This document shows, piece after piece, positions 6,739-41,854 of a stretch of DNA of 64,000 nt; positions within the stretch are counted from its first letter, which is position 1; each line of letters starts with the position of its first letter. The stretch lies in assembly GCF_001619985.1 (NCBI RefSeq), contig NW_017264200.1:186001-250000 (forward strand), in the 5' to 3' direction. The translations under genes and the position numbers were made by a program. This DNA comes from Xylona heveae TC161 (taxonomy: Eukaryota; Ascomycota; Xylonomycetes; Xylonales; Xylonaceae). The notes beneath the pieces are model-generated. The model had not been told where the DNA came from, searched no databases, and worked only from the letters and a program-made list of their open reading frames with translations.

Positions 6739-8892
6739 ATGCGCTCCACGCTCTCTTCTTTGGCTACGGCCCTTCTTGTTGTTTCTTCTTGTGCGCCGGC
6801 ACTCGCAAATCCACTCGCTCGAATCCTCAACGAGAGGCAAGCTAGCAATGCTTCCGACGTTTGTGTCGAGGATGAATACTATACCGCTCTGCACCAAGAT
6901 GCTGCAGAGGCCAGTCCATTCTGTAGCTCCTACATTTCAATTCCTGTCGTGACATCGACTTTGCCATATACTGTTCAGGCTCCTCAATCGTATGGCATTT
7001 TCCCATGAAATCTTTTATTCTGCTTGCTAGAATCATGTTTCTAATGAGTTATTAGTCGGACGACGACGACAACCACGCGGACAACCACTGTTCCGCTCTT
7101 TGTCACTTCAACCGTCACTACTACTCTAGTTGTTGACAGCGTAACCCTGGTTCCCAAGCACAAACGGGCTGAAGCGACGCCCGTGGCTATGCCATTGAAA
7201 GTGCGAGACATCGTCAAGCGTGACAGAGCCTCTGACCTTTCTTCCATTGGCGTGGCTCTCTCCAGCGCTTGTACTTGCTTGGACGTCACTCCTTCAACGA
7301 CTTATGTCCCTGCGACATCTACTCCTCCGGTACGTTCTTTTGCCAATCGAAGCCCTGTCTTCAAAATCCGCTTTTCTAATCTCGTCTAGGTGAAAACGTT
7401 GACCGCTGTTGTGGTGACGACCACAACGCTCTCCTCGACCGGCTATGTTACTGTACTTGTCGAGTCAACCAGGACCATCACGTCCCACACTGGAATTTCC
7501 TCGTCTAACACGTCCGTGAGCACATTGCCCAGTTCGGCTTCATCATCCGTCAGCAGCAGCGTGAGCCTGTCTTCAACTATTTCAACGCTCAGCCCTTCAA
7601 GTTCCATTGTTTCTAGCTCGTCCTCGGTATCTGTCTCTACATCAGTATCAGTATCTACCTCGGTATCCCTCTCGAGCAGTACTATTGTCAGCAGCTCCGT
7701 GATCACCAACAGCAGCTCTTCTGTCTCGTCCGTGTCCAGTGTCAGTACTGTTAGCAGCGTTTCTGTCTCAACCAGCAGCAGCATCATCTTGTCTACGGGC
7801 GTCAGCAGCAGCGTCACGAGCATTCCTCTCTCCACTGGAGTGAGCTCATCGTCAATCTTCTCAAACACGACTAGCGTACCGTCCTCCACTGGTCCTAGCA
7901 GCAGTAGTGTTCCTCTGTCAACTGGTGTCAGCAGCTCGAGCGTTCCTCTCTCCACCGGAGTTAGCTCTTCCTCTGTAGTTTCATCCTCTTCCATCTTCTC
8001 GAACAGCACAAGCGTTGCATCCTCGACCGGTGTGAGCAGCAGCAGCATTCCGCTTTCAACCGGTGTGAGCTCCTCTTCAATTTTCTCAAACACTACGAGT
8101 GTGCCGCTGTCCACTGGAGTTAGCAGCAGCAGTAGCATTCCCCTCTCCACCGGTGTTAGCAGCTCGAGTATCTCTCTTTCCACTGGAGTTTCCTCCTCGT
8201 CAATCTTCTCCAACACCACCAGCATTCCCCTTTCAACTGGTGTCAGCAGCTCCAGCATTCCTCTTTCTACCGGTGTGAGCTCGTCATCCATCTTCTCAAA
8301 TACTACTAGCGTGCCGCTTTCGACTGGGGTGAGCAGCTCGAGCATCCCTCTGTCCACCGGCGTCAGCAGTTCCAGCATTCCGCTATCTACTGGTGTTAGC
8401 TCATCGTCCATCTTCTCCAACACTACCAGTATTCCTCTTTCGACTGGGGTGAGCAGTTCAAGCATCCCGCTCTCCACCGGAGTTAGCTCGTCCTCAATCT
8501 TCTCCAACACCACGAGCATTCCTCTCTCCACTGGTGTTAGCAGCAGCAGCATCATCCTATCCACTGGCGTGAGCTCCTCGTCCATCTTCTTCAACTCCAC
8601 CACCATCTCTCTCTCCACTGGAGTCAGCAGCCGAACCTCGATCATTTCGTTTAACGTCACCTCTTCTGTACCGACCAGCATCCCGCTGAGCACCGGTTTC
8701 AGCAGCAGCAGCAGCGGTAACTTCACCATTTCCTCCACCAACTTGACTAGCTCTGTTGCTTCAAGCACTGTGCCACCTCCAACTTCGTGCACGGCTTGCA
8801 ACACCACCATCACCTTTACTGCCCTCGAGACCATATTCACTACAGCTACAATTCTTCCTCGCCGTCTCGCCGCCCGTGGCAACTGGTTTTAA
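6739..8892 (+). CDS. Secreted Ser/Thr-rich repetitive cell-surface protein
   Basis: Three exons, 6739-6989, 7056-7329 and 7390-8892, encode 675 residues. The introns are 66 and 60 nt; the first has a CTAAT branch site. Residues 1-23 form a signal peptide (hydrophobic core ending APALA), followed by an Asn/Asp/Cys region (Cys42, Cys62) and a VVTSTLPYTV-type stretch. After the CTCL motif near residue 158 the protein becomes an extreme Ser/Thr/Val region built from repeats such as STGVSSSSIPL and SSSIFSNTTS (about 7790-8640). Many NTT/NST sequons and Ser/Thr runs imply heavy N- and O-glycosylation. The C-terminus (SCTACNTTITF to RRLAARGNWF) is not hydrophobic, so a GPI anchor is unlikely. Likely a wall-associated or released mannoprotein; no enzyme domain is seen. 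The family is not recognised. Confidence 0.85.
7786..8640 (+). repeat. Coding minisatellite in the Ser-rich protein
   Basis: This part of exon 3 consists of alternating units of about 11 codons (STGVSSSSIPL) and about 18 codons (STGVSSSSIFSNTTSIPL), more than 20 in all. Units differ at synonymous positions (tcc/agc/tcg Ser, act/acc Thr) while the peptide is kept, so the array has been under protein-level constraint. Confidence 0.85.
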
Positions 8893-16300: not shown

Positions 16301-19300
16301 CATCGTAGCATCCTTCTTCCCGTTCCCCTTTTTTATCAGCGCCGAACATCGAGTTATGCTCGCCCTCATGCCCATACGCTCATAACTTGCTTCCTCTTGT
16401 TCAACTATAAGCGAGACGACATTCTGCTGACTTCACATTTTCTCTTTTGTGTTTTGTACCCTCCAAGAGAAGACACCTGAGCGACCGGCCAGCCCGGCCC
16501 GTCTCTAATCGTTTGGACCGTCCTCTACCCCTCCCGCTCTCTTCCACTCTTTTCTCTTGCCGTTTCCTCGGCCCTCTCTCACCCCCGGAGAGTATCAGCA
16601 GCAGAGTGAGTGGAGGAGATCCGGAGAGGGAAATCAGCATGGCGAAGTGATTGACCCACGTTGGGGAAATTCCTCCACTAAAGACGATGACGACTGATGA
16701 CGACAATGGAGAAAAAAAAAAAAGCCACGCGCTGTTCAGCCCACTCAGGCTGCTCTATCTTGCTGGTCTGTGTGTGGTCTCCCCATAATAATCATTTCTT
16801 GTTCGGCACAGCTCTTCCACTGGGGTGCATCTGCGTACGTGTGCGATAATCGGACGAGTGTCGGTTTTGCCTCGGATTCTCATCTTCCGCGGCATATCAC
16901 GTGACATATAATTTCCATTCTAGGCGTGAATCTCATGATATTGATTCAGAAAAATGCCCAATTTTGATTTTACTGTGGAAAATGAGCTGAGATGCGAAAT
17001 ATTTCCGAAAGATCATGTCTAAAATTGACAAGATTGCTGGGGGGCAGTTTTGAAAACAGCTGCAGTGTCATCCAAAATCCATCCAAAAAAGGTTCCTCTG
17101 TACCGGGTTGTCTACCCTGCTGCCCTGTGAGAGCCTCGTGATCGGGACTCGGAAGGGACAAAACATGTCCAATCATCCACGGCAAGATGTTGGCCGTGGA
17201 GCCAATGAGAGCACTCGGATGGACAGGCACAGAAGCTTACATCTGGACGAAAGGATGACTACGGATTGGCTCAACGGCATGGCCAACGGACGGACGACGG
17301 CCTGCAACGTGGAGCGGCAATTGCGGAGCTTAGCTAAGTCGGCATCGTACATCCGCGTGCGCGACCTGGTCTGCCTTACTGGTGTCTGGTTGTCCGTGAA
17401 ACGACTGTCGTGCTCTGCAAAGCCCAAAATGGTACTTGTATATCGTGGGAACCCTCGGACGCCGATTGGCAAGTTGCTGAAGAAGCAGACAAGGACGATT
17501 CCGACGTTAGGCATTGATTGCAGCCATCCTGTTGGGGATACATTACCTTCTCTATTTCCCATTCTTGTATCTACTTTTTTTTCTTATTATATTTACTCTA
17601 CCTCAGACCCACGACCCAACAGGACGTGAGTGAGAGTGCTTGTATATAGCGTGTTTGAGCGTGTGAGAACCAAAAGGGCTACTCTCCGAGAGATAACCTT
17701 TGACTCGTTTGAAAGCCGAAATTATTCCTGTGGCAACACCACCACTTCCTGTCCGCTTCTTTTCGCGACTACGAAACCGACCTTCCTCCGAACCGAAAAC
17801 CCCGAAAGAACACCTTGATTCTTGAGAGCTCGGGAACAGCTCACGGTGATTCGGAGCCGTCCAATAAGTGAGACGGAGCAAAGAGGACAACAAAGCATCC
17901 GGTGTCGAATTGTTGCTACGGTTTCCTCTTCGCAACGAAGAGGTGAGGGGAAAAGAATTTTTGTGAGATCGACTTTTTGTTGCGCGTCAGCCGCGAAGCA
18001 AAGAAAGTCAGTCATTGGCACATTGGGAGGAGGGGTAATTCCTTCACTCGAGAAAGAGAGAAAAGTGTGTGTTGTGCCTTGGCAGCGTTTTAGGAGGGGT
18101 CTTGGGACACCCTTCATCGTTTCCCTAGCAAAACCTTGGTGCGTGTGACGTCTGTTTTGGTTGGGGTACACCGGCGGTACCCCAGTTTCCGCAGGCATCC
18201 CACATTAGACCAAGTCGTGGCAAAGTCCGCTGACCCGGATTGCCGCGGTACGGAAACCACCAATTCTTCGGCCTTTGACCTTGCGGGCACGAGACCGACC
18301 ACCTGCCGTCACAAGCGAAAGAAGGCAGGAAAAAGGCACCACGGAAAAACCAGACGGGAAGAGAAAGCAGAGAAATCCTCGGAAAGGGCAAAAGGAGGCA
18401 ACACCCTGTGTTTGGATTGTCTTCTTCAGGTCACTCCCACGGAATTCGACGTGTATCCCCAGGTCTCTCTGTCATCTGGAGTGCTGCACCACGGCCCCCA
18501 GAAAAGATCTACAACTATACCACAATCCAATATCCTCTAACCCGGAAGAAACACGGCCGCTACCTACCCTGGACGAGACGAGTACCTCTTTTGGTTATAT
18601 CGCCCCCAATTCATCAGCTCTCGCACCCACCGCTTCTTCCGCTGTCAGGTAGCATTTTTCCTGAATCGGTCGGGGCTGCTTAGTTCGCACGTTTCCCCTT
18701 CCTGCCACCTCGTCTGGTTCCAACAGTCGAGTCGACCATTTACCCACCAAACGGCGGATCCCTCTTATCCCGCCGCTTCGCCCACTTTTCGCTTCCCTTT
18801 AATCCCTTCATCTCCGCGCTTCCCTTCTTTTTCTTTTCTCCCCTCTTTCCTCCCCCCCACCACACACAAACATATTGGGAGAAAAATTTCACCAGTTTAT
18901 TCTGGTCCTTGAAAGGCCTCTTTCCGCCGTTCGGTGTCGAGCAGCGGACAGCTGGCGACAAATCGGTGTAAAAGCCACGGCCGAACTGTATATACGTTTT
19001 TCTTGTGAAGAATTTCTGCTCTGTCTCTACTCGCCGATCCATCGAATCCATTTGCCAGTTCTTTCGCCACATTCCGCTTCGCAACTGAGCTATACGCACA
19101 AAAGACAAACCTTCGGCGCCATTTTTGATCGGTGACTGTTTGTGCGACGCTTACAACAACGCCAGTCATTTCTGGAAAATTTGGTTCTCTTTGCGACCGA
19201 AGAAAGCGTTCCTCGTCTCTTTTGTGAGATTGATTTGTTCTTCTCTCCACTCGAATTACCATTCTGCTTCAACCGCACCAAGGGGCATTTTCCTTGCACA

Positions 19301-19311
19301 CCTCATCAATC
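13327..19311. other. Six-kilobase stretch without a convincing gene
   Basis: It lies between the divergent starts of the zinc-cluster gene (-) and the copper-fist gene (+). ORFs of up to 173 codons occur (17108-17629 +, 14488-14904 -, 14160-14405 -), but none shows a known domain or a consistent splicing pattern. The 81-codon minus ORF at 14160-14405 is the most protein-like and could be an unrecognised small gene. CTTAGGTAGGTAGG-type words occur near 15410. Long non-coding upstream regions are common for fungal regulators. Confidence 0.4.
18768..18866 (+). promoter_or_regulatory. Pyrimidine-rich promoter/leader tract
   Basis: About 100 bases are almost entirely C and T (cttcccttctttttc, cccctctttcctcc). 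CT-rich tracts ahead of transcription starts are typical of filamentous-fungal promoters. It lies 445-545 bp upstream of the copper-fist ATG, implying a long 5' leader. The start site itself cannot be read from sequence. Confidence 0.4.
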
Positions 19312-20937
19312 ATGCTGATCGACGGCGAAAAGTGGGCTTGTGAAGCCTGTGTCCGAGGACACCGTGTGAGCAACTGCCAACATGCTGGTAAGCCCAACTA
19401 TGACTCTTACATGTCTGAAACTTTTACAACGAGCTCGCCTTTCTAACCTCCTTCGATTCTCAGACCGTCCTCTTACACACATCAACAAAAAGGGTCGGCC
19501 AGTCTCTCAATGCCAGCATTGTCGGGGTCTGCGCAAGTCGCGCTCCGCTCACGTCAAGTGTGATTGCAGCGAGAAGCCACATACCAAGGGTCAGTGCAGC
19601 CATATGGACAAAGGCGACGGCAAGAGTAAGCAAATCTCATCTGCTCTATTGTCTCATCCTTTTTTTTTTTGTTCTGCTTCGCTCTTGTTCTTTCCGCATT
19701 CGGCGTTTGGAAATCTGACTTGAGGATGGCAGGTGGTCATTCGTGCTGCTGTTCGCACGGTTCCAAGTGCACTTGTTCCATGAAAAAGGATGCGCGCAAA
19801 TCCGTCTCGGAGATCCTCGAGCTTTCCAAGGCCAACAAGGAAGCTCAGAAGCCGCGTCTGACGACTGTGCAATCCGAGAGCTCACTGACCGTTTTCGCCA
19901 ATGGCCACCACAAGCCCGCTCACAAGCACAATCAGATGGCCCACAAGTCCGGCATGCCCTACCAGATTCCGCGCTACCACTCTGTATCGGGCGGCATGGG
20001 TGATGCTCTTCCCCGCTCATCCATGGACAAGTCGTTCGACCTGGACGCCGAGCGCAGCCAGTCGGTCATGTCCGCTTCCGCCACCCCATCCATCCCAGAG
20101 GATACCCGCGTCGTCAAGTCTGAGCAGACCTCGCCGCGCCAGCAAGCCAACTCCGCGTCTCGGCTCAATTCTCGCCTGCCTCCGCTGGATATTGATTTCC
20201 CCGTCTATGACACGTCCAACATGAGCCAAGAGCAGCTTGATCTGCTGTCCGCGCCCGGATCATCCTATGAACAGTCCATCTCCACCCCCGAACTGGACCC
20301 TCCGCTGCTCTCGGCGGGCGTGGCCATTCCTCCGGTCGACTGGTCCGCATTTGATCTTCCCTTGGACACTGGCGCCTTTTCCAACAACTCGTTTAGTCAG
20401 GCGCCCTCGTTTGCGGGTGGATTTGACTATGGCAACCTGTCTCAGGCGGAAGTTGCGCCATCATCGTCTGGCGGTCTCTCCGACTTTGGCGACTTTACCT
20501 TTTCCAATGACAGCCCGCTAAACCCGCCGGGACTGGTGCACAACCAGGTTCCCTCGGACTCTTCGGAGCTCTGCGAGTCGGACTCGTACCGTTTGAGCAC
20601 CGCGTCGTCGTACATTGGCCTTCCGCAGACTTCGATGCTGGCATCGGAGAACCTCGGTACGATTGACATTGACGAGTTCCTCAAGGGTACACGGCGAAGC
20701 CCTTCGGACGATATCAGCATGGGAATGCACAATGATTTTGCCGCCGCCACGGCTGACTTGACTACGCTGTTTGACGACCAGCCCAAAAGCAGCTTCTCGC
20801 GCGGCGTGTCGCCCGACGATATGCTTATGATGGCTCCTCAAATGCACTCGTCGGCCACGTGGCCTACGATGAACACGGGCGCCTCGATGCCCTTTGATAC
20901 GGAATCAGAGGTGCCCGAGTGTCCTTGGATTAGTTGA
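19312..20937 (+). CDS. Copper-fist transcription factor (AceA/Cuf1-like)
   Basis: Three exons, 19312-19387, 19464-19625 and 19733-20937, give 480 residues. The copper fist fills the N-terminus: MLIDGEKWACEAC with zinc ligands Cys10, Cys13, Cys22 and His24, then the minor-groove KKGRP motif (Gly36-Pro38). A cysteine region follows with CQHC (42-45), KCDC and, across intron 2, HSCCCSHGSKCTC (Cys84-86, Cys92, Cys94), the type of cluster that binds Cu(I) in Ace1-like activators. The rest is Ser/Pro/Asp-rich with hydrophobic-acidic patches (FDLPLDTGAF, FGDFTFSN) suiting activation domains. Family role: nuclear copper sensor controlling metallothionein and copper-export or copper-uptake genes. The CCC-HG-CTC cluster favours the detoxification (AceA) type over the uptake (Mac1) type, but this is inference. 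Confidence 0.9.
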
Positions 20938-21991
20938 TTTGACGAATGATCCTGATTAGGACTGAATGCAAAAAAGTGGAGTCTTACGGCATGACGCAAC
21001 GACTCATGACGAATTGTTCATTTTTGTTTCTCTTTTGGTTCATGTGCCCTTTTTTTTTATCTATTTTTTTTTATTTGTTGGCGAGCATGCGCATACCACT
21101 ATAGATTTCCTTTTTCATCGTTGATGGCATTTCCTTTCAGTCACAAGTCACAGGGCTGTGGACGGGGTGACGAGTTTTCACAGTGATTGCCTCGTCAAAC
21201 ACTTATGTTTGTTTCTCCCGCCCTGCCTCACGCTTTCCTCTCCTGTACATAGTCGTCTTTCCTTTCCCTCGGCCGTGTCATTATTCCCTTTTTCTTTATA
21301 TTCTTTCCTTTTTTGTCATGTATACCCCCCGATACTACACCCTTGTTATGGGTACGGAGTGGCCTTGTTGCTGTCCCTTGTTTGTTAGTGTCCTTTTCAA
21401 ATCTTTTTTTATTTCCACGCTCATGTTTCTGGTCATTTTCTGTTGGAATAGAAGGAATAGTCGGGATCCAGCACAAGCACATTTGTTAGTTTTATATATA
21501 TTCCTTTTTTTTCTCTATATTTTGCCATATCTTGGTGCGTCACGTCTCTTGGTATATATTATATTATATTTTTGATGTTCATATCATATATATCTCTCTC
21601 TTTCGATGTATCTACACTTTGGACAAAGCACCAAGTTCATGTATGTATGTAGTTTTTGTTTTGCAAACGGAGAAATTATTTCACTTGATAAACATTCTTC
21701 TCATATTGATAAGATTCTCGTCATTCTCATACGCTTGCTACAAAGTACAAAGTACAAAGTACAGTGAAGACGAAAAAAACAGAAAGAATGCAAACGAAAA
21801 CGCCATATCGCCCCTTGTTCTCGCCCAAGTATAATATTCCCAACCCTGCGACTTGCAAATCATTTATTCTTCCATGCCTCACTTCCTCCCGTCGAGCGGA
21901 CACCTTTTGTACGTGTAAACATGTACGGAGTAGTGTAGCCTAGCCGTACAAACCGTACAAGCCGTGAGACAGGAGACACCGGGGATACAAA
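20938..21991. other. Convergent intergenic region
   Basis: About 1.05 kb between the copper-fist gene (+) and the small membrane-protein gene (-). T-rich runs at 21040-21080 and AT-rich words at 21550-21600 (atatattatattata) fit 3'-end processing signals. A short tandem CAAAGTA repeat lies near 21740-21760. No gene seen. Confidence 0.5.
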
Positions 21992-22443
21992 TCAAGTCGA
22001 CTTCTTTCCGGCGCCGTACAGCGGTTTGCGCTGCCCCGTGCGCGTCTGGCGCTGCGAATAGACTATGTATCCTGCAATCCCCGCCGCGATGAGCGACAGG
22101 ATGATGAAGTTTTCTGTTGTCATTGTATATCAGCCTCTATTCTCCCTTTTTCTTTGCCCTCTTTTTTTTTTCCGGTCTTCTTTTCTTATACTATCGTTCT
22201 TTTTCCCGCGCTTTCTTGTCATACTATTGTAAAGAAATACCACCGGATAAACGTGGGATAAGGGGAATACTTACTAAAGAAAAACTCAATCAGCGTCTTG
22301 AACAGGTTCAGGACATCTGCAAGCAATGTCTGGAACACGGCAGCGACGGACTCGATTGACGAGAGGAGGGTGTTGAGAATGGAGCGAAAGACGCCGAAGA
22401 TGGAGGAGAAGAGGTCGGAGATGGCGTGGGTTATTCCTGTCAT
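21992..22443 (-). CDS. Small membrane protein, 96 aa
   Basis: Two exons, 22443-22275 and 22113-21992, join in phase 1 through a 161-nt intron (GTAAGT donor, ACAACAG acceptor). Residues 1-56 form an amphipathic, Leu/Ile/Phe-rich region (SDLFSSIFGVFRSILNTLL), then a clear membrane helix NFIILSLIAAGIAGYIVY and a basic Gln/Lys/Arg tail ending GAGKKST. The pattern suits a small ER or mitochondrial membrane protein with its tail in the cytosol or matrix. I do not recognise a named family. A tight fit of both exons to one membrane-protein pattern makes the gene likely. Confidence 0.7.
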
Positions 22444-23672
22444 TTTGCTCTTTTCTTTTTTTCTCTCTTTTTCTCCTTCTTTCTTGGTCTTGCTGGACGT
22501 CTGGTATGGTTGCTAGAGTTGTATTTCGGAGGTACCGTGGTTTTGTTTACACTGATAGGTTTGAGGGAGAGAGATGGAGATAGAGTAAGAGAATTGTATG
22601 GTCAAAGCAGAACGTAGGGATGTGGGTTGTTCTTATATGTGAGACTTCGGTAGAAGAAATTAAGGTGTGTCACGCTCCTCTAATAAAGAGAAAAGGAAAA
22701 AAGAAAGGCGTGGCTGAGTATGATGTGTGAATAGAGTTTAGCTCTGGGAGAGGGAAACAAAAGCAAGAAGTTGGCTTTAGGCCCAGGAACAAAGAAAAGC
22801 AGGGAACCGGTTTTAGCAAGGATAATAGGATAATGGAATACAGTACGAAGTAGTTACTACGTAGCAAAGGTGGATAATGCAACAAGGCTACAGAGCTGGG
22901 GGTGATGAAAAGCATAGTAATATGTTGCACAAAGCTACGTAATAATCCTAGCACAGAGAGACACCAAGATGGCATGGAAATAGATTGCATTCCTGACAAA
23001 AATCCGGGGTGGAAAAAGGTCACACCTGGGGAAGGATCGACGGACAAGGGCAAATGACGTCGTTGGATGGTCATAAGAGGCACAGACCAATTAACTTCTA
23101 TTGTTACAGCTGGTTTGGGGTTAGTTGATAATTTAACTTGAGCTAAGTTGTTTCTGGGTAAGAGGAATAATGACTCAGGAACTAATTAGCTTGGTTAACT
23201 TTTATATAGCTAACCCAGCTATGGCATGGAAACGACACTGCACCACCACTCTTCCACGACGACAACATTGTGCGAACCACGGTCGTTGATTCGTTGCTTT
23301 GCTCAATGACTCGGCTGGATTGATATTTTCTTTCATCGAGAGACTTGTCAATAATTTCTGAAGCTTTCTGATTTAAATTCAGGCGTGCAATATGAACATG
23401 ACTCACGTGAAAGTGACTTGGGCTGTGGGGCAGTCTAATGGGACGCCTGACATTGACTGTCTACACTGCCAGCCTGTCCTGTGCGTTGCAAGGCGTCCAA
23501 TACACGAATTTTTGCCAAGAACCTGGCGGCAGATCGACAGGTCGCCCATTATATAAAGTCTCTGCTTGAGTTCAGAAAAGATCTATAATCCAACAGTCTC
23601 AATCATCTAGACTCAACTTTTTTTTTTAATATCATTTAATACTTTACGAGAAACACATCTGCTATAACTAGA
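22444..23672. promoter_or_regulatory. Upstream region of the RVT-type gene
   Basis: 1.2 kb between divergent starts. It holds TGACTCA at 23171-23177 and 23399-23405 (perfect Gcn4/CpcA/AP-1-type sites), a one-base variant TGACTCG near 23306, and TATATAAA at 23550-23557, about 115 bp before the ATG at 23673. ORFs here (such as 22670-23083 -) have no family resemblance. Confidence 0.55.
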
Positions 23673-26639
23673 ATGGCTGGCGTCTTGTCTCAAACTCTGC
23701 AGTCCATTACCCACACCAAGTTTGCTCAGATTGAGAAACAGCGCCATAATCTCCAGTCCCATAACAAGTCACTTGACGATGCGCTCGCAAAAGCAACGTC
23801 TCAACATGAGCGGATCCGCATCCTGCTGGATGGCCTTGAGTCGCTTGGTTCGTCTTCTCTAAAGCGTTCCGATGAGTCTGCAGAAGAGTCAGACGATGAA
23901 AGTATTTCCGGCAGTCCAAGTTCAGGAAAGGACAGCAAAGAATCCAAATCGCCCTTCTTCACAAACGAAGCAAAGATATATCGCAAACTGATTAATCAAG
24001 CCGACTCCGATTCTTCAATTTCTGCAAGTCTTCTCTCCGAATGGGAATCGAACTTGAAACAAACCATTGATATGCAGAGAAATAAACTTGACTTTGCGAG
24101 TCTCTACAGCAAACTGGTCACTGAATGGCTGACAAACTCGGCCGATACGCCTGTCAAGGGATCCGGTACAAGCAGCGCAGACAAACCGGCTGTCGACAGT
24201 GGTGCAGCCGAAGAGGCCTTTGAACCAGTTGGGCGTGAAGAAATGCATGAGCAACGCAAGACCTTTGAGCCTTATGTCTTCAACGCCAAAGAAACCGACA
24301 CCGACGCAATCCAGGGCTACCTAACCAATCTATTCGCGTCGAATAAAATCCAAAAGGAACAGCTCAAAAAGCTGCGCCTCAAGTTCAAGAATTTTGGCGA
24401 GCACTTCTTTGCCTCTGTGTCTCAGCCCGTCTTCGACGAAGATGCAGTCAAAATGGCTCTCAAGGGTCTTTTGAAATTGGACCTGCTGACGGAAGAAAAG
24501 CGCATGATGTTACGAGAATTCCAGCGCAACAGTGTCGTCCTCTCCGAGATCGCCAATGTGCTCAACATGAGGCTTGCTGCTCTCGACGAATGGACATGGG
24601 GCACTGAAGCCATTCTCATTGAGCAGCGCCGCGCTTTAAATGGGCGGTATCGAGTCTTTACTGACGAGGATTTGTTGCAAGCCTTGTTTCTGCACTATTT
24701 GGGTCTGAAATGGGCGGTCGAGCTTAAGAGAGCCTTGTCGCAATTCTACGAGTCACTAGCCTGGACACGACAACGAGGCCCCATGTCAAAACTCGAACTG
24801 GAGAGAAGAAGGTACTTTTTAGGCGAGAAAGTGAGAAACAAGACTGTCGACCGAAAACGTCAAGCCTTCTACACGGACTACTTTTTAACCCAGCTTCCAG
24901 ATTCAATAGCGGAGGCTGGACGGGGCTACGATGGAGATAGTGACGAGGACGATGATGATACCAATAGCGACGAGAGCAAGCAAAACTCTCCTGTTGAGCT
25001 CAAGCAACAGCTGCTCCACGCTCTCAGCACCGAAGCTTTGATCGCGAAAAACCTACACGGCAGCTTGACTGTCATTCAATCCGACTTCAAGTGGTTCGGG
25101 CCCTCGGTGCCGCACTCAACTGTGTTGGCCGTCTTGGAATTTTTTGGAGTTCCCAAGATATGGATCAGTTTCTTCCATCGCTATCTCGAAGCGCCTCTCC
25201 GATTCAAGCAGGACGGACCAGACGGCCAAGTCCGGCCTCGCAAGCGGGGTCTCTACAACTCGCACATTCTCTGCGACTTCTTTGGTGAACTTGTCTTGTT
25301 CTGCCTCGACTACGCCATCAACCAAAAGACGTCTGGCGCCGGTCTCTACCGTATGCACGATGATTTTTGGTTCTGGGGCCGTCAATCTACTTGCGAAACG
25401 GCGTGGGCTACAGTTCTCCGCTTCACCGAGCTAATGGGTCTGGATCTGAATGAAGAAAAGACGGCGGCGGTACGGATTACTGATCAGAAGAAACGCAAGC
25501 ACAGCCGGGACTCCGAGGCGCTTTCCAAGACCCTCCCATATGGCGAGATCAAATGGGGGTTCCTCCGGCTCGATGCGAAAACGGGCGACTTTGTCATCAA
25601 TCAAGACGACGTGGACAAGCACATTGGCGAGCTCAAGCTCCAGCTCGGCGCATGTAAGAGCACCTTTGCGTGGATCAAAGCATGGAACACATATGTGGCT
25701 CGATTCTTTGTCGCCAATTTTGGCAAGCCAGCGCACTGTTTTGGCCGACGACACGTGGATGACATGATTGAAACGCTCGTACGCATCCAGCGCGCCGTCT
25801 TTGCCAATGATACCGGCACCGCCAACAGCGTGACAGAGTATGTGCGGCAAATGGTCGAGGCGCGATTCGGCGTCAAGGATCTGCCCGACGGATTCATCTT
25901 CTTCCCCATGTCCATGGGCGGTATGGGCGTGACAAACCCGTTTGTCGAGCTCTTTGCCCTCCGCGACACCGTCGCCAAGTCGCCAGAAAAGATTTTGACG
26001 AGGGCTTTTGCCGAAGAAGAACGAGAATACAAGCATCTCCAGAAAGTCTTTGACGAAGGCAACGTGAAGCTTCCACCATTATATCACATGTCTGATGAAC
26101 TCCGTGACTCTCTACAGCAAGACCGCACACGGCGACAACAGCAGCAAAACCTTTCCACGGCTCGGAAGTCTGACGATGACAATGACAGTAACTTTAACCT
26201 CGACTCTACTTCTGACTCTACTTCTGACTCTACTTCTGACTCTGACTCTGAATCCCTTTCGTCCTCATCAGACAATGATAACGAACCATCCCTCTTCATG
26301 ACCTTTGAAGAATTCACCCGCTACAGAGAATCCACCTCTCCCCAGCTCGCACAAGCATATTCCCGCCTCCTCGCGTCCCCCGAACCAGCTCCTCTCCCCG
26401 AACCGTCTTTCTACGCCGCCCTTTCCCGCGCCGGACCCACCTCCGATCAGGATGACCTCAAGGAAACCTTTGGCGGCAGATACTGGCGGTACTTGCCCAT
26501 CTACTGGCGCATCGTCGTCTCCATGTATGGCCCTGACACGCACCGCCGGTTTGGGTTTTTGAGAATAGTCGATAAGGGTCTGCTCCCGCAGGGCATGATT
26601 GAGTTGTTTAATGCCCGCAGAGCGAAATGGTTAGGTTGA
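23673..26639 (+). CDS. Cellular reverse-transcriptase-related protein (RVT type)
   Basis: One uninterrupted exon of 988 codons. Residues 1-65 look coiled-coil (FAQIEKQRHNLQSHNKSLDD), and Ser/Asp/Glu-rich linkers surround residues 68-90, 420-440 and 830-870. The middle holds reverse-transcriptase motifs: motif A with Asp471 (SDFKWFGPSVPH), a G-V-P-K-I-W helix, a motif-B-like KRGLYNSHILCDF, motif C His562-Asp563-Asp564 (RMHDDFWFW) and motif-D-like LNEEKT (593-597). All three catalytic aspartates are present. No LTRs, endonuclease, RNase H, gag or zinc knuckle is visible. This layout (N-terminal coiled coil, intact catalytic Asp residues, long single-copy ORF) matches the rvt genes described in fungi, protists and some bacteria, thought to be domesticated cellular enzymes able to polymerise nucleotides. 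The exact cellular role is unknown. The rvt assignment is inferred from motifs and architecture. Confidence 0.8.
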   Translation: MAGVLSQTLQSITHTKFAQIEKQRHNLQSHNKSLDDALAKATSQHERIRILLDGLESLGSSSLKRSDESAEESDDESISGSPSSGKDSKESKSPFFTNEAKIYRKLINQADSDSSISASLLSEWESNLKQTIDMQRNKLDFASLYSKLVTEWLTNSADTPVKGSGTSSADKPAVDSGAAEEAFEPVGREEMHEQRKTFEPYVFNAKETDTDAIQGYLTNLFASNKIQKEQLKKLRLKFKNFGEHFFASVSQPVFDEDAVKMALKGLLKLDLLTEEKRMMLREFQRNSVVLSEIANVLNMRLAALDEWTWGTEAILIEQRRALNGRYRVFTDEDLLQALFLHYLGLKWAVELKRALSQFYESLAWTRQRGPMSKLELERRRYFLGEKVRNKTVDRKRQAFYTDYFLTQLPDSIAEAGRGYDGDSDEDDDDTNSDESKQNSPVELKQQLLHALSTEALIAKNLHGSLTVIQSDFKWFGPSVPHSTVLAVLEFFGVPKIWISFFHRYLEAPLRFKQDGPDGQVRPRKRGLYNSHILCDFFGELVLFCLDYAINQKTSGAGLYRMHDDFWFWGRQSTCETAWATVLRFTELMGLDLNEEKTAAVRITDQKKRKHSRDSEALSKTLPYGEIKWGFLRLDAKTGDFVINQDDVDKHIGELKLQLGACKSTFAWIKAWNTYVARFFVANFGKPAHCFGRRHVDDMIETLVRIQRAVFANDTGTANSVTEYVRQMVEARFGVKDLPDGFIFFPMSMGGMGVTNPFVELFALRDTVAKSPEKILTRAFAEEEREYKHLQKVFDEGNVKLPPLYHMSDELRDSLQQDRTRRQQQQNLSTARKSDDDNDSNFNLDSTSDSTSDSTSDSDSESLSSSSDNDNEPSLFMTFEEFTRYRESTSPQLAQAYSRLLASPEPAPLPEPSFYAALSRAGPTSDQDDLKETFGGRYWRYLPIYWRIVVSMYGPDTHRRFGFLRIVDKGLLPQGMIELFNARRAKWLG

Positions 26640-26683
26640 TGCTGTTTGATGCTGTTACGATTCTATGTATTTAATTATCTATC

Positions 26684-26744
26684 TATTATTATTATTATTA
26701 TTATTATTATTGTTATTATTGTTATTATTATTATTATTTTTATT
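26684..26744 (+). repeat. ATT trinucleotide microsatellite
   Basis: Roughly 20 ATT units broken by a few TGT units, starting about 45 bases after the stop codon of the RVT-type gene, so it probably lies in its 3' UTR. Confidence 0.9.
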
Positions 26745-27939
26745 GCCATCATCGTCATCATCACCACCATCATCTCTGCTGTTGTTTTTTTCCCTTGTCC
26801 TCGCCCTTCTTTTCTCGCCCTTTGTCCCATTATTCAGGGGGGAAAAACAAAGTAAGTCAAGGAAAATAGGAAATAACTACGAATGGAAAGAATTTTAACT
26901 TTCCCCGTCTCATATATTTGACTTTTATTGACTGTATTTTATTTTATTTTATTTCTATTTCTATTTCTATATCTATTTCTAGTTTATTTTACTTTTGCCC
27001 CCTCCCCGTAACAATTAATTGACAGGAGAAGGGGAAAAATAAAAGAAAAAAATAAAATAAAAAATTTAAATAAGCTTATTTAAATGCCACGATCTGAGCA
27101 AACTTCCCAATCTATAATTACTCCCAAAAGCAAATGGATTGCATTTATCTCTTCCTCCCCACCCTTACGCAGCAAATACTCTGGTAGTGACATCCAAAAT
27201 CAATATCTGATAGCATGACACCGACACTGTCGGTTCTGCCGGGAACCAAGGGAGGGGTTTGTAGAGTAGTAGGTAGATTATCATCTAAACTTGGTAATTT
27301 CTGCCATGTCGCAAATTGCAATCGGAAAGAACTACCAAACAGGAAAAAATAATATCAAAACAAAGGGTCACGTGTGGTCATTGAAACGCGAGCCATGTGG
27401 TAATTGGATCAGGAAACGAAAAAAAAAGGAAACGATTGTACAGAGGAATATTTTCCCAGATATAAAGTAATTTTTATTATTTTTTCCTATTCTTAAAGAT
27501 AATAATAATAGGGAAAGTGAATGGCGGATACACTTGTCAAGCTTTTTTACGGAATGAACAAGTCTATGGCAAAGAATGACAGGTGCTGAGAGGCCTCTCT
27601 GCGAACAACTAGGGGTAAAAAGGGGAGAGACGGATGTTGTTGTGACTAAAGCTTGACTTGCGGAGACTGTGGAATATAGGGTGAGTAGATATTAATACAC
27701 AAGCAGAGAAGATTGACGAGATGTGTGAGACAAGTGAAGAGCCAAGTGGGGTAAAAGCCTCATAAGACTTATTGTGCTGGAATGATTAGTCAATGAATCA
27801 ATCAAGTAGAATGCGTTCATGTAAGCAGCTGCAGGCCGGCCAGGCAGACAGCAGACATAAGACATAAGACGCACAGACACAAGTGGGATGGTTAGAGGCG
27901 AAAGGCGTCGAGGGAAAAAATAAAAACATGTGGACGGGA

Positions 27940-28290
27940 AGAAGATCGAGATGGGAGTGAGAGGGGAGAGGATATAGAAGAGAGTATCCAGCAAGAAGAA
28001 AGAAAAGAGAAAAGGGAAAGGGGGAAGAGACAGAGGAGAGGGCGCGAAGAGGTAAAGGATGAATTGAAAAGGGGAATCAAAGATAAGGAGAAGAAAACAA
28101 GAAGGACAGGCGGAGGATGAGAAGAGAACATTTGTTTCCTGCAGGTCAGAGGAGAAGGGGGGAGGTCCGGCTCGTCAAGGCAAGACGGCAGAAGTACAGA
28201 GGACGGACGTAATGGAGACAAGAAGACAGGGTGAGAGAAAAAGGAAGAAAGAAAGGGAGATAGAAAAAAGAACAAGAGAAAGAAAAGCCG
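27940..28290 (+). repeat. Long homopurine-rich tract
   Basis: Some 350 bases of the plus strand are overwhelmingly A and G (runs such as aagaagaaagaaaagagaaa and gaagagacagaggagaggg), with only scattered pyrimidines. Read on the minus strand it is a CT-rich tract of the kind found in fungal promoters, but no gene follows it on that strand. It could also form triplex (H-DNA). Confidence 0.65.
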
Positions 28291-29160
28291 AGCACGGTAT
28301 ATCGGCCAATAATGGTTGCAGGGGAAGTCGAAAATTATGCAGATGCAATGCAATGCAATGTAGTCAAGGGTCGCAGATATGCCTGCAGGGTGCGTGCGCG
28401 CATACACGCATATACGCACACGTCTTTTCTCTGCGTCTCCTAGGGATGGCTCCCAGTAAGTCAGCTAGTCACCGAATCTATCGGCGCCACTTAACTGGCT
28501 AGTCTTTCCCGAAGGAAAGTGTGGTACAGCCCACATGTTAACGCATCCATTTTCTCACCCTGGTCAGACTGCAAGCCCCCCTCTTTTTTCTACGGCGGAA
28601 TGCAGTCACAGAGAACCTATGAGGTTTCATGGGCGTCATAAGCCACTTTCGCCTTGGACCGTCCCCTAGACATAATTAAGCCCCATAACCCCGAAGATCC
28701 CAGACAATAGCTGTGATCAACCCTACCTGGACTCTTCACCCCTACCACCTACCTAACGCAAAAGGTCTTCTATCCGTAACCCACAAAACGTTCCACTACC
28801 CTTTCCCTACCGACCTTCTTCCCCACCCCGCCCAACGAGGCGACCAGCGGTCAAGGCGACCACCCCTAAAATCTTGGGTTGCGGTCCGCCCCAAATTGCT
28901 GCGACACGCTCTGCAGTCGATGCAGCACTTGTTGCTCACCTGAGAGATTTTGACCCGGCCGCAGGGTACCAGCCGGAATGGCCAAACGTGCGTGCATGTA
29001 GACAATTCCAACGTACATTCACAATAGGCAGCAAGAAACGACGAAAGATGAATGGCATTCCTGAACAGATCAGTCCCGGTCAAAGATCAAAGTCTGCGCA
29101 TCAGACAAAGATAATTGTAAGAAAAAAAGCCAGTGCCGGTATGTTACCTGCTATCGAGCC

Positions 29161-30858
29161 GACTGACCACGCAGGATTGTTCTGATCGAGCAAAGCAAAC
29201 CCAGGGTAAGAGATTGGCCAGGGCACGCTTCCCCGTGTTGAATGATTGGACAACAAAATCAGTAAGCGTGACATATTGACCCGGGGCGGGTTCGTTTACA
29301 TTGTTCACCAGCTTGGATAAGGGCAAAATTCTCAACATGTTATTGAAAGGAAGAACGACAATGTAGAGAGGGGGCAAAGCAATAAGCTGCGCATGCCCTT
29401 TTCAGCTTGAATGACACTTGCAATCTGTATTCTGATCGCCGTTCGGACGTCGGATTGTAACTGCGCCCCACTCCGTGATTGTTTTGACCGACGGTGGTGG
29501 CATCCGAATGATTCCCATCAAGTGAGGAGACAAGGAGCACTGTGTACGAGGCCAAAGCAAAAAATAACAGGCCTGAAAATGCGAAATGCATATGTGCAAC
29601 GACCGATCGTTTGCCTTTCAGGTTGCCTCGTCCCAAACCGACACGGCTGATTTGCTCACTATGCCATTCGAAGACGCATTGGTGATGCATTGATGCAGAG
29701 CGAGTTTGCCACCATCGTAGGCCAAAGCACCGAGCACTGGTAGCAATTCGGCCCAAATAAAGCGCGTATTCCTTGATAGTGGGGTAGAGCTGACGATCAA
29801 TTGGCACTCAACGGCAGGGTTCAGCCGTATTCGAGCGGATATGGATGATGAACCTGTGTAGCAATCCAAATTCCAATCCCGGGGGTAGCCCGTACAGTGG
29901 TGGGGTCCCAAAGGATTGAATTTTTGTGACCCGCAAATTTGATTGCAAGATAGCTGAACTATGATGCGAACGGACGTTTGAAATTGACCAGACCGCGTTC
30001 GCCACGTCAGTAGGGTCCTTGATTGTTGATCGTGCTTCCTTTCTCTAGCGTGAAGCCAAAACTCTAACTTGAACATGGCGTGCGATGCTCTTACCATGTT
30101 TCCCTGCCGTGTGTCGGTCACGCCCCGTCTTGTGGATCCGACACGGATATGTTGTGGCGACCCTAAAGTCTGCGATTGAGAACGATCCCGAATGCAATCG
30201 TGGTCAGCTGAGATGATGTCGTCCCAGACAATTGGGCAATGGCATGTCGGTCAAATTCGGCTTAGACGTGAGCCGGGCATGCCGTGGCATAATCGATTCG
30301 TTAAGTTGCAGCATTGCAACGCAGGATGTGACAATAAGGTGACTCGAATTCGATGTGATGCTAGAGACAAGGGGCTGACATGCATATTGCCAATATCAGA
30401 ACCGGCAGCTGCCAGTAGTTCTGCGATGATAGGACAGTAGTACGCGACAGTCAGTGCATCCGAAAGTGTCCGTCCAGTCTTTTCCTAAAGAGAGTAATGA
30501 GCCATGACAGACGTGAACACAGGAAGGAATTGGTTTCCCAAAAGATCCCTGCAGAAAGCCAACTAAAGGAGCGCCCTTGAACTTCGAGCGAGAGCACGGA
30601 AAGGGGCGTTGACGAAAAACACCAATTCCGATATCTCGACCGGGAGTAAAGGCGGCACAGTTCGATGGCCGAGACCAGGCCAGCCAAGAGAAGAATGACC
30701 GAGCGCGACTCGGTGAAGCCATGGCGTCGGTGGGAGAGAATGTGGTGATTCAGATGCCAATAATTCCCATGGTATGTTAGGATTCGAACGACTTCTGCAA
30801 CCATCCCTGACCAGGTTGGAAGATGAATCGACTGGATCACATCCAGGGAATTATCCAT
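29161..30858 (-). pseudogene. Possible decayed membrane protein gene (wax-synthase/MBOAT-like?)
   Basis: Several minus-strand frames carry membrane-like segments: near 30640-30720 (ESRSVILLLAGLVSAIELC), near 29650-29690 (RCFGLRWWQTRS), near 29545-29600 (HMHFAFSGLLFFALASYTV) and near 29340-29390 (LIALPPLYIVVPFNNML). The FG-R-W-W-Q followed by a membrane helix with SGLL recalls the FWGRxWHQ and SGLxHA signatures of fungal wax-synthase-like acetyltransferases. The pieces lie in different frames with stops between them and no splice pattern I can defend, so this is either a degraded gene or coincidence. Confidence 0.2.
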
Positions 30859-31663
30859 GACCCGGCTCAGGAGGTGAGCGATTTTCCCCCCAACACCTAG
30901 AGGCTAATGTACGTGACGAAGTTTTCGGTGTTTAACTTCGTGATCTGTACAACACAAAGGATCCCGTGCTGACCCTCTTGCAACGCCGAGGAAGTGTTTG
31001 TCCTGCAGCAGGGATGCATTCAAGCCGTGTTTTTGTGATGATCAGGAGCTTCAAGTGTTATAGTTGGACGACGAGAAGCGGGGTAAGAGAAATGGTTAGA
31101 CGACGGGTGGTGACGGAGGCAGAATCATAGGATCAACATGTTTTATTGTCAATTGAGGTATCGATGTGGAGGTGAGGTGGAGTTGTGTTCGAAACAACAT
31201 AAATACGTCGTTCAACTTCTCTTTGTTTCGCCTTTGTTCGTCCACCACCGTCATCTCGAGCTCGAGTCCACAGCAGAGCCAATCAGTATTGTCGAAATCT
31301 TCAATTGATCCTAAAGCTAAACGTTCAGTCAACACTGTATCCTGCTTGCTCAAACGCAACTACTACCAAAGGTCAAAACACCCCGGTGGGTAGGTTTCTG
31401 ATCATTATTCAAAACTTTTTGCCGATCCTTCTCAGGGGTAGGTTCTGATTGGCTTCAGCAGGTCGAGAGGGAAAGAAAAGTGTCGCACAGATAGCATTGG
31501 CAATCGAGCCTTGTTAGACTCAGAGCTAGGCAAACAAAGAAAAAAAAAATTTCTCCTTTGGCCTCTCTCTCTTTTCAAATTTGAGGTGAGTGCTTGGGCC
31601 ATGAACAGTCAATGGCTGGGATGCTGATTGCACCGAGTCCGCTTCAGATTTCAGACGTGAAAC

Positions 31664-37426: not shown

Positions 37427-38329
37427 TTACCGAATACGAAGCGGAGTATTTTGCTGCACATTCTCTTCTTGAGTCGCATGCGATACCCTGGCACCAAGGC
37501 AGCATTCCTCAAGCCTCTCCCTTTTCAAATGCTCAAGCCTTGCCCTCAATTCTCGAGTCGCCTGAGCCGTCGGGATCCAGTATATACTTCTATCTTGTCT
37601 CCCTAGGCTAAAAAAATATCGGCGTTTGAGATGATTCATGCACTCTACCAACTCATCGTATTTCCCCGGCTCAGCCTTCTGCAAGGCCCCCAGCGCCTTT
37701 CTGTCATGATACAGGAATGACCCAACATCGCTGAAGGAAGCTTTGTCAATTGCTTCCTTGATATTCAAAATTCCGGATTTCTTTACATCTTCAATCTTCC
37801 TTTCAATCTTTTCATATTCGGCATATGTTTTCATTTCATTAAGGATGACACGTTGATTCATGCATAGCGCCCAGGCAGCCCCGTCGACTGCTTTTTTCCA
37901 GTTCCTGTTGTGCAACCATTCTTCGTATGTTTGCCCGTGTCCGTCCAGCTTCCGGTATAATTCGTACCAGGAAAATTCAGGATGATTCTGATAAAGCTTT
38001 TGCATAAGGCTTGTTTCTCTGCGTTTTTGGAACTTGCTTGGTAGATGATCGTTGTATTCTCGATAGAGCCGCTCTTCAATCAGCCCATGCATGTTCTCGA
38101 TGAGGATGACGTGGAGATCCTGTGGCACATTGAGATCTGCCCACGTGAGTGCCTGCGGTATATATGTGCAGTCGTTATTTGTGGAGCTGGTTGCTTGATT
38201 GCTACCCCGTCCTGGAAATTCTTCTAATTCCATTCCCTCCAGCTCTTCGTGTGTTCTTGTCAACAATTGTCGCAAAAATGTTTTGCATTTGTTCCATATG
38301 CTTGCCAAACAGTTGCTGTCGCTGGTCAT
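37427..38329 (-). CDS. Lineage-specific protein, paralogue A of local family
   Basis: A single exon of 301 codons. No known domain. It is clearly related to the protein encoded at 40871-41854: both have a DL/GL-HVILIENMHGLIEERLY-type helix, a HPEFSWYELYRKLD / HPGFSWSDVQHEID block, then LYHDRKALGAL / LYWDRQALAML followed by a CM-LK-FF segment and a charged C-terminus. Helical, soluble, with no signal peptide. The paralogue's N-terminal PLNKRGL block is missing here, so an upstream exon may exist. Its 3' end faces the splicing-factor gene 154 bp away. Function unknown. Confidence 0.65.
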   Translation of the reverse strand: MTSDSNCLASIWNKCKTFLRQLLTRTHEELEGMELEEFPGRGSNQATSSTNNDCTYIPQALTWADLNVPQDLHVILIENMHGLIEERLYREYNDHLPSKFQKRRETSLMQKLYQNHPEFSWYELYRKLDGHGQTYEEWLHNRNWKKAVDGAAWALCMNQRVILNEMKTYAEYEKIERKIEDVKKSGILNIKEAIDKASFSDVGSFLYHDRKALGALQKAEPGKYDELVECMNHLKRRYFFSLGRQDRSIYWIPTAQATRELRARLEHLKRERLEECCLGARVSHATQEENVQQNTPLRIR

Positions 38330-40450: not shown

Positions 40451-40860
40451 AAGATTAAGTAGATTAAATTAGTTTACTATATATAAAAGTAAAGTAGATA
40501 ATTAATAATTAAATTAATTAGCTATACTGTTAAATTATAATAGAGATAATCTATAAATATACTAGAATCCAGGTTTAGACTAAGAGTCTCCTAATTCATT
40601 TTAGTAGAGGTCGAAGCTTAACCAAGATGGAAGGCACGACTTACAGATAATGCTTAGAATTAAGTTTACTACATTGGAAAAGGACAAGTATTGCTTGGTA
40701 TATAAGGCAGACGTGTTTTGAATGCTATCTCATTAAAGAAAAGAAGCAGAAAAAGCCAGATACTATATACATCGTACGAATACTTCTTTTGTGTAAGTCT
40801 CACCGCAACAGTGACTCATAGAAACTAATCAGCTATAATATAAATATCAGTGCTCTTGAA
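40140..40860. other. AT-rich island
   Basis: Around 700 bp of very low GC content rich in TA steps and in tta/taa/tag words (ttaattaattatt, actatatataaaag). It begins inside repeat copy 1 and ends near the start of paralogue B. No coding potential. Confidence 0.8.
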
Positions 40861-40870
40861 AGAATTAGAA

Positions 40871-41854
40871 ATGGCACATACCGGATTTCGAAGCGTTTCC
40901 CTGCCTCAAGCAGGTGAAGAAAAGAACATCCTCATTCCAACCACACCGACCGGAAAGCAAAGAAAAGACAAACAAAAAGAAAGTATGCCGAGATATGTAC
41001 CTCCGATCCAACGGCCTCCGGAAGGCCCACTTAATAAGCGTGGTCTGAAAGAGCGGGTGGAGTATGGAAACATATTCAAGAAAAATAGAAACATATCGCC
41101 AAGGTTGATGCAATTTGTTGAGAAGTTTCAAAATAACTGCAAGAAGCTTTTGGGTGCCAAAAAGATGAAGCGACAAGAGCAAGCTGCTCTTGAGAGAGAT
41201 ATTCAGATTGACGAAGGAATGTTGCAATCAAGGTGGGACGAAACCCACGGCCCCCAGGGCCTTTGTACAATTTTGGTGGAGGACATTCAAAATATTGTCG
41301 AGCAACATATCTATCTCCATTATGGAGATTATCTGGCTGCTTCCCTGCGTGAGCTCAGACAACATGAAGCCATGCCCCACCCAGGGTTCAGCTGGAGTGA
41401 CGTCCAGCATGAAATTGATAAGGAACAACAACCAGACTGGATGGTATTCGTTGGCGGAAAGCGTAGAGAGCAGCCTTGGTTAGATGCAGTCAAAGCCGCA
41501 GCAATAAAGCTAGATGTCGACCATGGGCTGCTCCTTTACGAAATCGAGGAGTACGCCGAGCGCAACAACAGGTGCCACCGCGGTATCAAAGGGTTCATAG
41601 ACGCCGCGAGCTGGGTCCAGCTCGCAGAGCATCTATATTGGGACCGGCAGGCTCTAGCGATGCTAGAGAAGCAGGTCCCAGAAAAACACGCAGCCCTGCA
41701 GCACTGCATGGAACGGCTAAAGGAGCAGTTTTTTGATGCCATCTACTTTGAGGATGGTAGAGTTCAATATTTTGAATCCATCGAAGCCCGACAGAGATCG
41801 GCGCGGAAGATTCAACGGCTCAAGGAAAAGGAAGAGCAACAACGAACGTCATGA
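40871..41854 (+). CDS. Lineage-specific protein, paralogue B of local family
   Basis: A single exon from ATG 40871 (MAHTGFRSVSLPQ) giving 327 residues. A basic, Pro/Lys-rich N-terminus (KQRKDKQKESMPRYVPP) precedes PLNKRGLKERVEYGNIFKK, a Lys-rich region, and the helical body shared with paralogue A: ILVEDIQNIVEQHIYLHYGDY, HPGFSWSDVQHEID, FIDAASWVQLAEHLYWDRQA and a C-terminal charged coil (RSARKIQRLKEKEEQQRTS). Basic and helix-rich with no signal peptide. No domain I recognise. TGACTCA lies about 65 bp upstream (near 40809). Confidence 0.7.
   Translation: MAHTGFRSVSLPQAGEEKNILIPTTPTGKQRKDKQKESMPRYVPPIQRPPEGPLNKRGLKERVEYGNIFKKNRNISPRLMQFVEKFQNNCKKLLGAKKMKRQEQAALERDIQIDEGMLQSRWDETHGPQGLCTILVEDIQNIVEQHIYLHYGDYLAASLRELRQHEAMPHPGFSWSDVQHEIDKEQQPDWMVFVGGKRREQPWLDAVKAAAIKLDVDHGLLLYEIEEYAERNNRCHRGIKGFIDAASWVQLAEHLYWDRQALAMLEKQVPEKHAALQHCMERLKEQFFDAIYFEDGRVQYFESIEARQRSARKIQRLKEKEEQQRTS

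Follow-up and report, generated by a model that had tools for sequence, protein, structure and literature searches.

The stretch of DNA analysed here, called the window in the following, comprises 64,000 nucleotides (positions 186,001 to 250,000 of contig NW_017264200.1) from the fungus Xylona heveae TC161. It contains an open reading frame (ORF) at 23673-26639 on the forward strand that encodes a reverse transcriptase (RT)-related protein, and this gene very probably belongs to the domesticated reverse transcriptases of the rvt class. The ORF starts with ATG, ends with TGA and has 988 codons with zero internal stops; no intron is required to read it, which bears out the intact single-exon gene claimed in an original prediction made from the letters of the sequence. 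At its base composition and with bases assumed to be independent, 988 codons would be free of stops with a probability of 1.4e-19; the remaining five frames across the same interval contain 23-58 stops. Codon usage is uninformative for this ORF, since the mean log odds of 0.030 in its frame and 0.029 in one other frame do not separate the two.

The best family match of the protein was the PADLOC profile RT_UG37 (E 5.7e-53), with residues 114-758 aligned to positions 76-657 of the 778 in the profile. This match is far stronger than those to general RT models, of which the NCBIfam group II RT (maturase) model reached 22.6 bits against a cut-off of 300 (E 5e-5) and the Pfam model RVT_1 20 bits against a cut-off of 29.6 (E 6e-4); strictly, E-values cannot be compared across libraries, and no long interspersed nuclear element (LINE) or long terminal repeat (LTR) model was searched as such. 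An intact bacterial UG37 protein of 769 amino acids (P0002; L012:582-2891:-), which scores 419 bits with UG37 and is called the bacterial relative below, comes from a genome of the same order as a Bacteroidota metagenome-assembled genome (MAG). In BLASTP the two proteins share 25% identity over 523 amino acids (E 8e-36), and a separate C-terminal match was found in addition. The gene and its parts are located as follows:

23550..23557 (+): TATA-box-like TATATAAA, read from the sequence about 116 bp 5' of the ATG; putative TATA box of the gene
23673..26639 (+): reverse-transcriptase-related gene, very probably of the rvt class, 988 codons in a single exon, with the PADLOC RT_UG37 match
23697..23846 (+): N-terminal heptad-patterned (coiled-coil-like) segment, residues 9-58, from its heptad score; common to the bacterial relative
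23847..23957 (+): Ser/acidic linker, residues 59-95; 26 of 37 residues opposite gaps in the bacterial relative
24534..24737 (+): conserved pre-palm block, residues 288-355 (W-x-W ... R ... D-x-D-L ... VELK); score 92 against the bacterial relative, reached by 0 of 1000 shuffles
24930..24992 (+): acidic stretch, residues 420-440, between the putative fingers block and motif A; 0 of 21 residues opposite gaps; the part of the bacterial relative that pairs with it is not acidic
25065..25127 (+): RT motif A with Asp471 (codon 25083-25085); Asp invariant in 23 alignment rows, block means of the predicted local distance difference test (pLDDT) 92-93
25239..25289 (+): RT motif B region RKRGLYNSHILCDFFGE, from UG37 blanking, profile comparison and the 23-row alignment
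25347..25376 (+): RT motif C YRMHDDFWFW with Asp563/Asp564 (25359-25364), from blanking and substitution, alignment and the palm model
25434..25472 (+): RT motif D MGLDLNEEKTAAV; biggest UG37 loss of nine blanked blocks (25 bits, from a copy of the protein that also lacked one residue)
25551..26087 (+): conserved post-palm block, residues 627-805; score 137 against the bacterial relative, reached by 0 of 1000 shuffles
26130..26297 (+): Ser/Asp-rich linker, residues 820-875, holding a 12-base tandem repeat; 46 of 56 residues opposite gaps in the bacterial relative
26472..26588 (+): conserved block at the C-terminus, residues 934-972, with a score against the bacterial relative that 0 of 1000 shuffles reached, and with Tyr944 (26502-26504) and Tyr952 (26526-26528) as candidate priming residues

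The likeness to the bacterial relative was assessed block by block, comparing local scores with those of 1000 shuffles each, for blocks that were picked after the alignment had been viewed. The score of 62 between residues 1-60 and residues 1-55 of the bacterial relative was reached by 0 of 1000 shuffles, and the same was found for residues 288-440, 441-610, 611-805 and 806-988 as well as for the final 64 residues alone. That five blocks beat their shuffles argues for an architecture which, judged from the alignment, is common to both proteins and runs in the same order from an N-terminal helix over fingers, palm and post-palm region to a C-terminal block. The heptad score of the N-terminal segment was reached by 40 of 5000 shuffles for the window protein and by 67 of 5000 for the bacterial relative. 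Residues 288-355 are probably the fingers, with motifs 1-2 assigned by eye, and both Tyr944 and Tyr952 are identical in the two sequences compared.

The palm itself is that of an RT. Motifs A to D and the catalytic residues Asp471, Asp563 and Asp564 had been named in the original prediction and were confirmed: the three aspartates and the lysine of motif D are invariant in a palm alignment of 23 rows, in which the palm and the bacterial relative are joined by 21 other RTs. The rows go back to 45 RT loci (10 + 35), from which L006 and L049 were dropped as too short; removal of sequences more than 80% identical reduced the remaining 43 to 23, and L020, with a frame that lacks RT motifs there, and L046 were also left out. 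In a profile-profile comparison (hhalign) the palm matched a profile of five group II intron RTs across motifs A to D at 97.8% probability (E 9.6e-13). Structure prediction, which had been proposed as a check, gave an RT fold for the palm (residues 434-700) with a mean pLDDT of 73.6, a predicted template modelling (pTM) score of 0.56 and ten-residue block means of 76-96 across residues 464-603. Ranked by E-value, the Foldseek matches of this model in the PDB were headed by DRT9 (7.9e-8), followed by a group II intron RT, DRT2, telomerase and Abi-P2.

The gene is not accompanied by parts of a mobile element. The Pfam scan of the 988-codon protein revealed no nuclease, integrase or RNase H, only the sub-threshold RVT_1 match and a sub-threshold AF-4 match within the Ser/Asp-rich stretch. 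No inverted repeats were detected in 19000-31000, where direct repeats are merely short or of low complexity; a second copy of the gene was not found at the protein level within the window, and together with 3 kb of flank on either side the gene gave one single match of 22 bases to the rest of the window. For the window, the claim that LTRs, integrase, endonuclease, RNase H and gag are all lacking therefore stands, and no matching copies, which the original prediction had named as evidence to the contrary, turned up in these 64 kb. Alternatively, the gene could derive from a retrotransposon polymerase (LINE, LTR or Penelope), captured recently or in decay and stripped of its partner domains. 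The weak palm scores with RVT_1 and the group II RT model would fit such an origin, as would the R2 RT among the PDB profile matches (E 7e-4), the LINE-1 and R2 structures among the fold matches and an RT tree that, in a passage of PMC12440569, places RVT with non-LTR retrotransposons. Against this, the RT_UG37 match is much stronger and extends over blocks outside the RT, there are neither LTRs nor a second copy in the window, and the reading frame is wholly intact, so that we regard a retrotransposon polymerase as highly improbable. An origin from a LINE or LTR element was rejected, with the general scores weak and confined to the palm, the LINE-1 and R2 fold matches non-discriminating and companion domains or copies missing from the window.

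Five of the seven features listed for the rvt class were found here, namely the D..DD palm, the lack of transposon parts (in the window), a bacterial relative, the N-terminal heptad segment and the C-terminal tyrosine block, the last two of which are reportedly features of the class. Work on HaRVT from 2018 is said to have described a coiled coil, multimers and C-terminal tyrosines. Compared by description, the gene resembles the rvt genes of fungi, rotifers and bacteria, such as Neurospora crassa RVT, in its intact RT palm without mobile-element parts and in the distribution over eukaryotes and bacteria, and, as far as the features reportedly typical of the class go, in the coiled-coil-like N-terminal segment and the C-terminal tyrosine block. 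The assignment to the domesticated rvt class made in the original prediction is thus supported by the RT_UG37 match, the block homology and these five features. RVT genes are described in a passage of PMC5718144 as the sole RT group with members in bacteria as well as eukaryotes, as forming a very long branch and as having loop 2a. According to a meeting-report passage (PMC10680173), rvt proteins polymerise without a template, require their catalytic residues, are under purifying selection and have been transferred horizontally, and rvt aids bacteria, fungi and rotifers under stress, for instance amino acid starvation and certain antibiotics.

The role of these host-owned RTs has stayed unclear, and we can propose a mechanism only in outline. 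The intact RT palm sits within a large protein of UG37-like architecture, which might oligomerise via its N-terminal coiled coil and add nucleotides without a nucleic-acid template, as described for relatives; non-templated polymerisation is, by analogy, the probable main activity. Synthesis could begin on a C-terminal tyrosine, and priming on Tyr944 or Tyr952 appears conceivable although doubtful. In the cell the enzyme might act as a stress-induced polymerase and not as part of a mobile element. A precedent for an oligomeric RT with template-independent, protein-primed polymerisation is provided by AbiK and Abi-P2 (described in part of PMC9508834), the priming tyrosines of which differ in being located near the N-terminus (Tyr44 in AbiK, Tyr61 in Abi-P2). 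Class 1 DRTs are likewise untemplated, with DRT3b priming on Y666 (from a section of PMC13174585). A further precedent is DRT9 (UG28), the top Foldseek match of the palm model: it has two conserved C-terminal tyrosines, found near the active site of its predicted structure, which probably prime DNA synthesis (from a section of PMC12483538). In contrast to the window, where no Rfam RNA was detected, DRT9 uses a non-coding RNA as template; furthermore, the window protein has no PADLOC match to it, and it matches the bacterial relative only in and just after the palm.

The use of a template cannot be discussed without the opposite view, that the protein is an RNA-templated cellular RT or an RNA-dependent RNA polymerase acting on a specific host RNA in a telomerase-like manner. 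Class 2 DRTs and telomerase do use a dedicated RNA (passages in PMC13174585 and PMC12632851), and RNA-dependent RNA polymerase activity is mentioned as a possible role of RVT in a part of PMC8381367 that cites a paper of 2011. Yet rvt activity has been reported as non-templated or as terminal transferase (parts of PMC10680173 and PMC3520738), and no Rfam family reached its gathering score in the window, a scan that an undescribed RNA would escape. We consider an RNA-templated enzyme to be quite improbable. A non-coding RNA partner encoded in the window was rejected, Rfam having yielded nothing at gathering score; the flanks were not searched for one specifically.

The rvt class itself is already known; the freshest part of these results is the link between RVT and UG37. 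Blocks shared from end to end tie a fungal rvt gene to a group that is filed with the phage-defence RTs, for which a protein-primed, untemplated chemistry is being worked out; this makes the function of RVT directly testable and offers Tyr944 and Tyr952 as concrete residues. The window protein and the bacterial UG37 protein agree in block order from N-terminal helix to C-terminal block, in the catalytic aspartates and in the two C-terminal tyrosines; they differ in the 219 additional amino acids of the window protein and in motif C (HDDFWFW versus MDDAFII). That fungal RVT and bacterial UG37 form one enzyme family, with the fungal protein as a working relative of a bacterial defence RT that uses its own C-terminal tyrosines to build nucleic acid without a template, as a signal in stress or immunity, is a tentative idea that we hold to be rather unlikely in its full extent.

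A related possibility is that the gene is a horizontally acquired eukaryotic offshoot of a phage-defence RT (UG37/DRT) which still serves antiviral or anti-mobile-element defence instead of a general stress response. The block-by-block homology to the bacterial UG37 protein fits such a descent, as do the classification of UG37, an unknown-group RT, under DRT in PADLOC, the horizontal transfer of rvt genes reported in the passage of PMC10680173 and the position of DRT9 as best-ranked solved structure for the palm. However, the literature searched yields no experiment on UG37: the term is absent from the main texts of PMC12632851, PMC8934634, PMC12483538 and PMC13174585, and rvt occurs in PMC12632851, which deals with telomerase and UG RTs, in the reference list only. 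Outside UG37, the bacterial relative scored 65.4 bits with UG19, 57 bits with Drt9 and 65.5 bits with the group II RT model; these scores are about equal and so do not tie the UG37/RVT line to any other DRT group. In addition, RVT is grouped with non-LTR RTs in the passage of PMC12440569, the passage in PMC10680173 names starvation and antibiotics and not viruses, and no clear defence island was seen among the bacterial UG37 neighbours, which were judged by eye without a library scan. Such an offshoot still serving in defence is therefore unlikely, and the rvt-class stress polymerase remains our preferred reading. At L014 3496-7192 (+), the divergent neighbours of the bacterial UG37 gene are a pair of large ORFs in which motifs like those of P-loop GTPases were recognised by eye. 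The PADLOC profile PDLC03776 (RT_UG37), filed as DRT, aligns along most of its length with a eukaryotic gene; some PADLOC RT_UG37 hits may therefore belong to rvt genes that act in stress and not in phage defence.

Several observations weigh against the assignment to rvt and its link to UG37. The assignment, although very probable, rests on the bacterial relative, literature descriptions and background knowledge, and among the genome sets searched only one such bacterial relative was found. For residues 1-287 the score against this relative was reached by one of 1000 shuffles because only residues 8-58 align, and from about residue 60 to 287 a likeness is not demonstrable. The fingers block fell on motif 0 of the group II RTs in the alignment and motifs 1-2 did not align, which bears on loop 2a. 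The fold gives no placement among RTs, since LINE-1, R2, group II and telomerase structures have template modelling scores over the query (0.47-0.49) that match that of DRT9 (0.47), and the palm model is not an independent proof because its alignment is dominated by group II RTs. The proposed structure check failed for the full-length model, the mean pLDDT of which is 35.7, and therefore Tyr944 and Tyr952 cannot be placed at the active site. Neither are these two singled out by number, because seven of the 27 tyrosines in the window protein are conserved in the bacterial relative and they are two of the seven.

The original prediction had drawn attention to the HDD of motif C and the aromatic FWFW behind it. 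Both are present as stated, and presumably HDD-FWFW also occurs in other fungal RVTs. It is not a hallmark of the family, because the bacterial relative reads MDDAFII at this place and the UG37 profile barely scores FWFW: blanking FWFW-G changed the match by -0.5 bit, and replacing MHDD by LVDD raised it by 3.6 bits. As a family signature HDD-FWFW was rejected on these grounds.

A similar result was obtained for the long acidic and Ser-rich linkers flagged at the same time. The linkers at residues 59-95 and 820-875 lie mostly opposite gaps and do not qualify as family hallmarks, whereas the acidic stretch at 420-440 aligns gap-free. Because 72 of the 230 gap-facing residues fall into the two linkers and the rest elsewhere, they account for only part of the extra length of the window protein. 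Possibly, both are flexible joints peculiar to this lineage.

Likeness to group II intron RTs, which share the palm motifs A to D, is confined to the palm in the comparisons made, and the window protein scores far below the cut-off of the group II model. Further relatives were searched for with the RT_UG37 profile in overlapping sets of genomes. With a limit of 1e-20 matches were obtained in 0 of 296, 0 of 247, 0 of 240, 1 of 396, 1 of 20 and 0 of 82 genomes, and with a limit of 1e-25 in 1 of 395 and 0 of 249; the matches in the sets of 396, 20 and 395 come from the same single genome. A search with a limit of 1e-10 gave one match in nine, a palm-only match (E 1e-14) in a CRISPR-type RT of L005. 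This locus from a Lachnospiraceae MAG (4699-7851, +) encodes, in a single frame of 1050 amino acids, an RT fused to a long C-terminal extension; by eye, it is of the CRISPR type and contains a region resembling a primase. The scan of genome contigs yielded nine loci, which inspection by eye assigned to RTs of group II introns or of the CRISPR type. Scans of viral contigs aimed at rvt relatives found none of these and one group II intron RT (by eye); a separate viral contig scan fetched group II RTs deliberately (35 loci). With tblastn, the window protein had no match in plasmids and phages at E 1e-3 and 1e-2, and blastn of the gene against plasmids found none either. A fungal orthologue did not turn up in any of the plasmid, phage, viral contig and genome contig collections searched. 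The bacterial relative matched 141 plasmid records in tblastn, with 0 covering 80% of the query; among the 20 plasmid matches listed, 14 are annotated as group II intron RT and six carry no annotation. Against phages it gave two short palm matches.

The surroundings of the gene read as ordinary gene-bearing fungal DNA. The window has 46 stop-to-stop frames of at least 150 amino acids, and eight of the 20 that were scanned with Pfam matched at E 0.01: a proteasome subunit, a WW/FF-domain protein, Fungal_trans, Zn_clus (under its cut-off), GPI16, DUF4246, RTA1 and Stathmin (under its cut-off). No tRNA was found in the window. In the frame at 19669-20937 (+), for which Pfam gave no match over its 435 amino acids, an ATG lies 57 bases into the frame and the product begins with MAGGHSCCCSHGSKCTCSMKKD, a start that we take to resemble a fungal copper-fist regulator. 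The frame at 7390-8892 (+) encodes a Ser/Thr-rich product of 500 amino acids with tandem repeats of 87 and 120 bases, at a guess a surface or wall protein. Finally, the ORFs at 37427-38329 (-) and 40850-41854 (+), 2.5 kb apart on opposite strands, are a diverged pair of one protein family with 28% identity over 214 amino acids (E 7e-24 in a single comparison).

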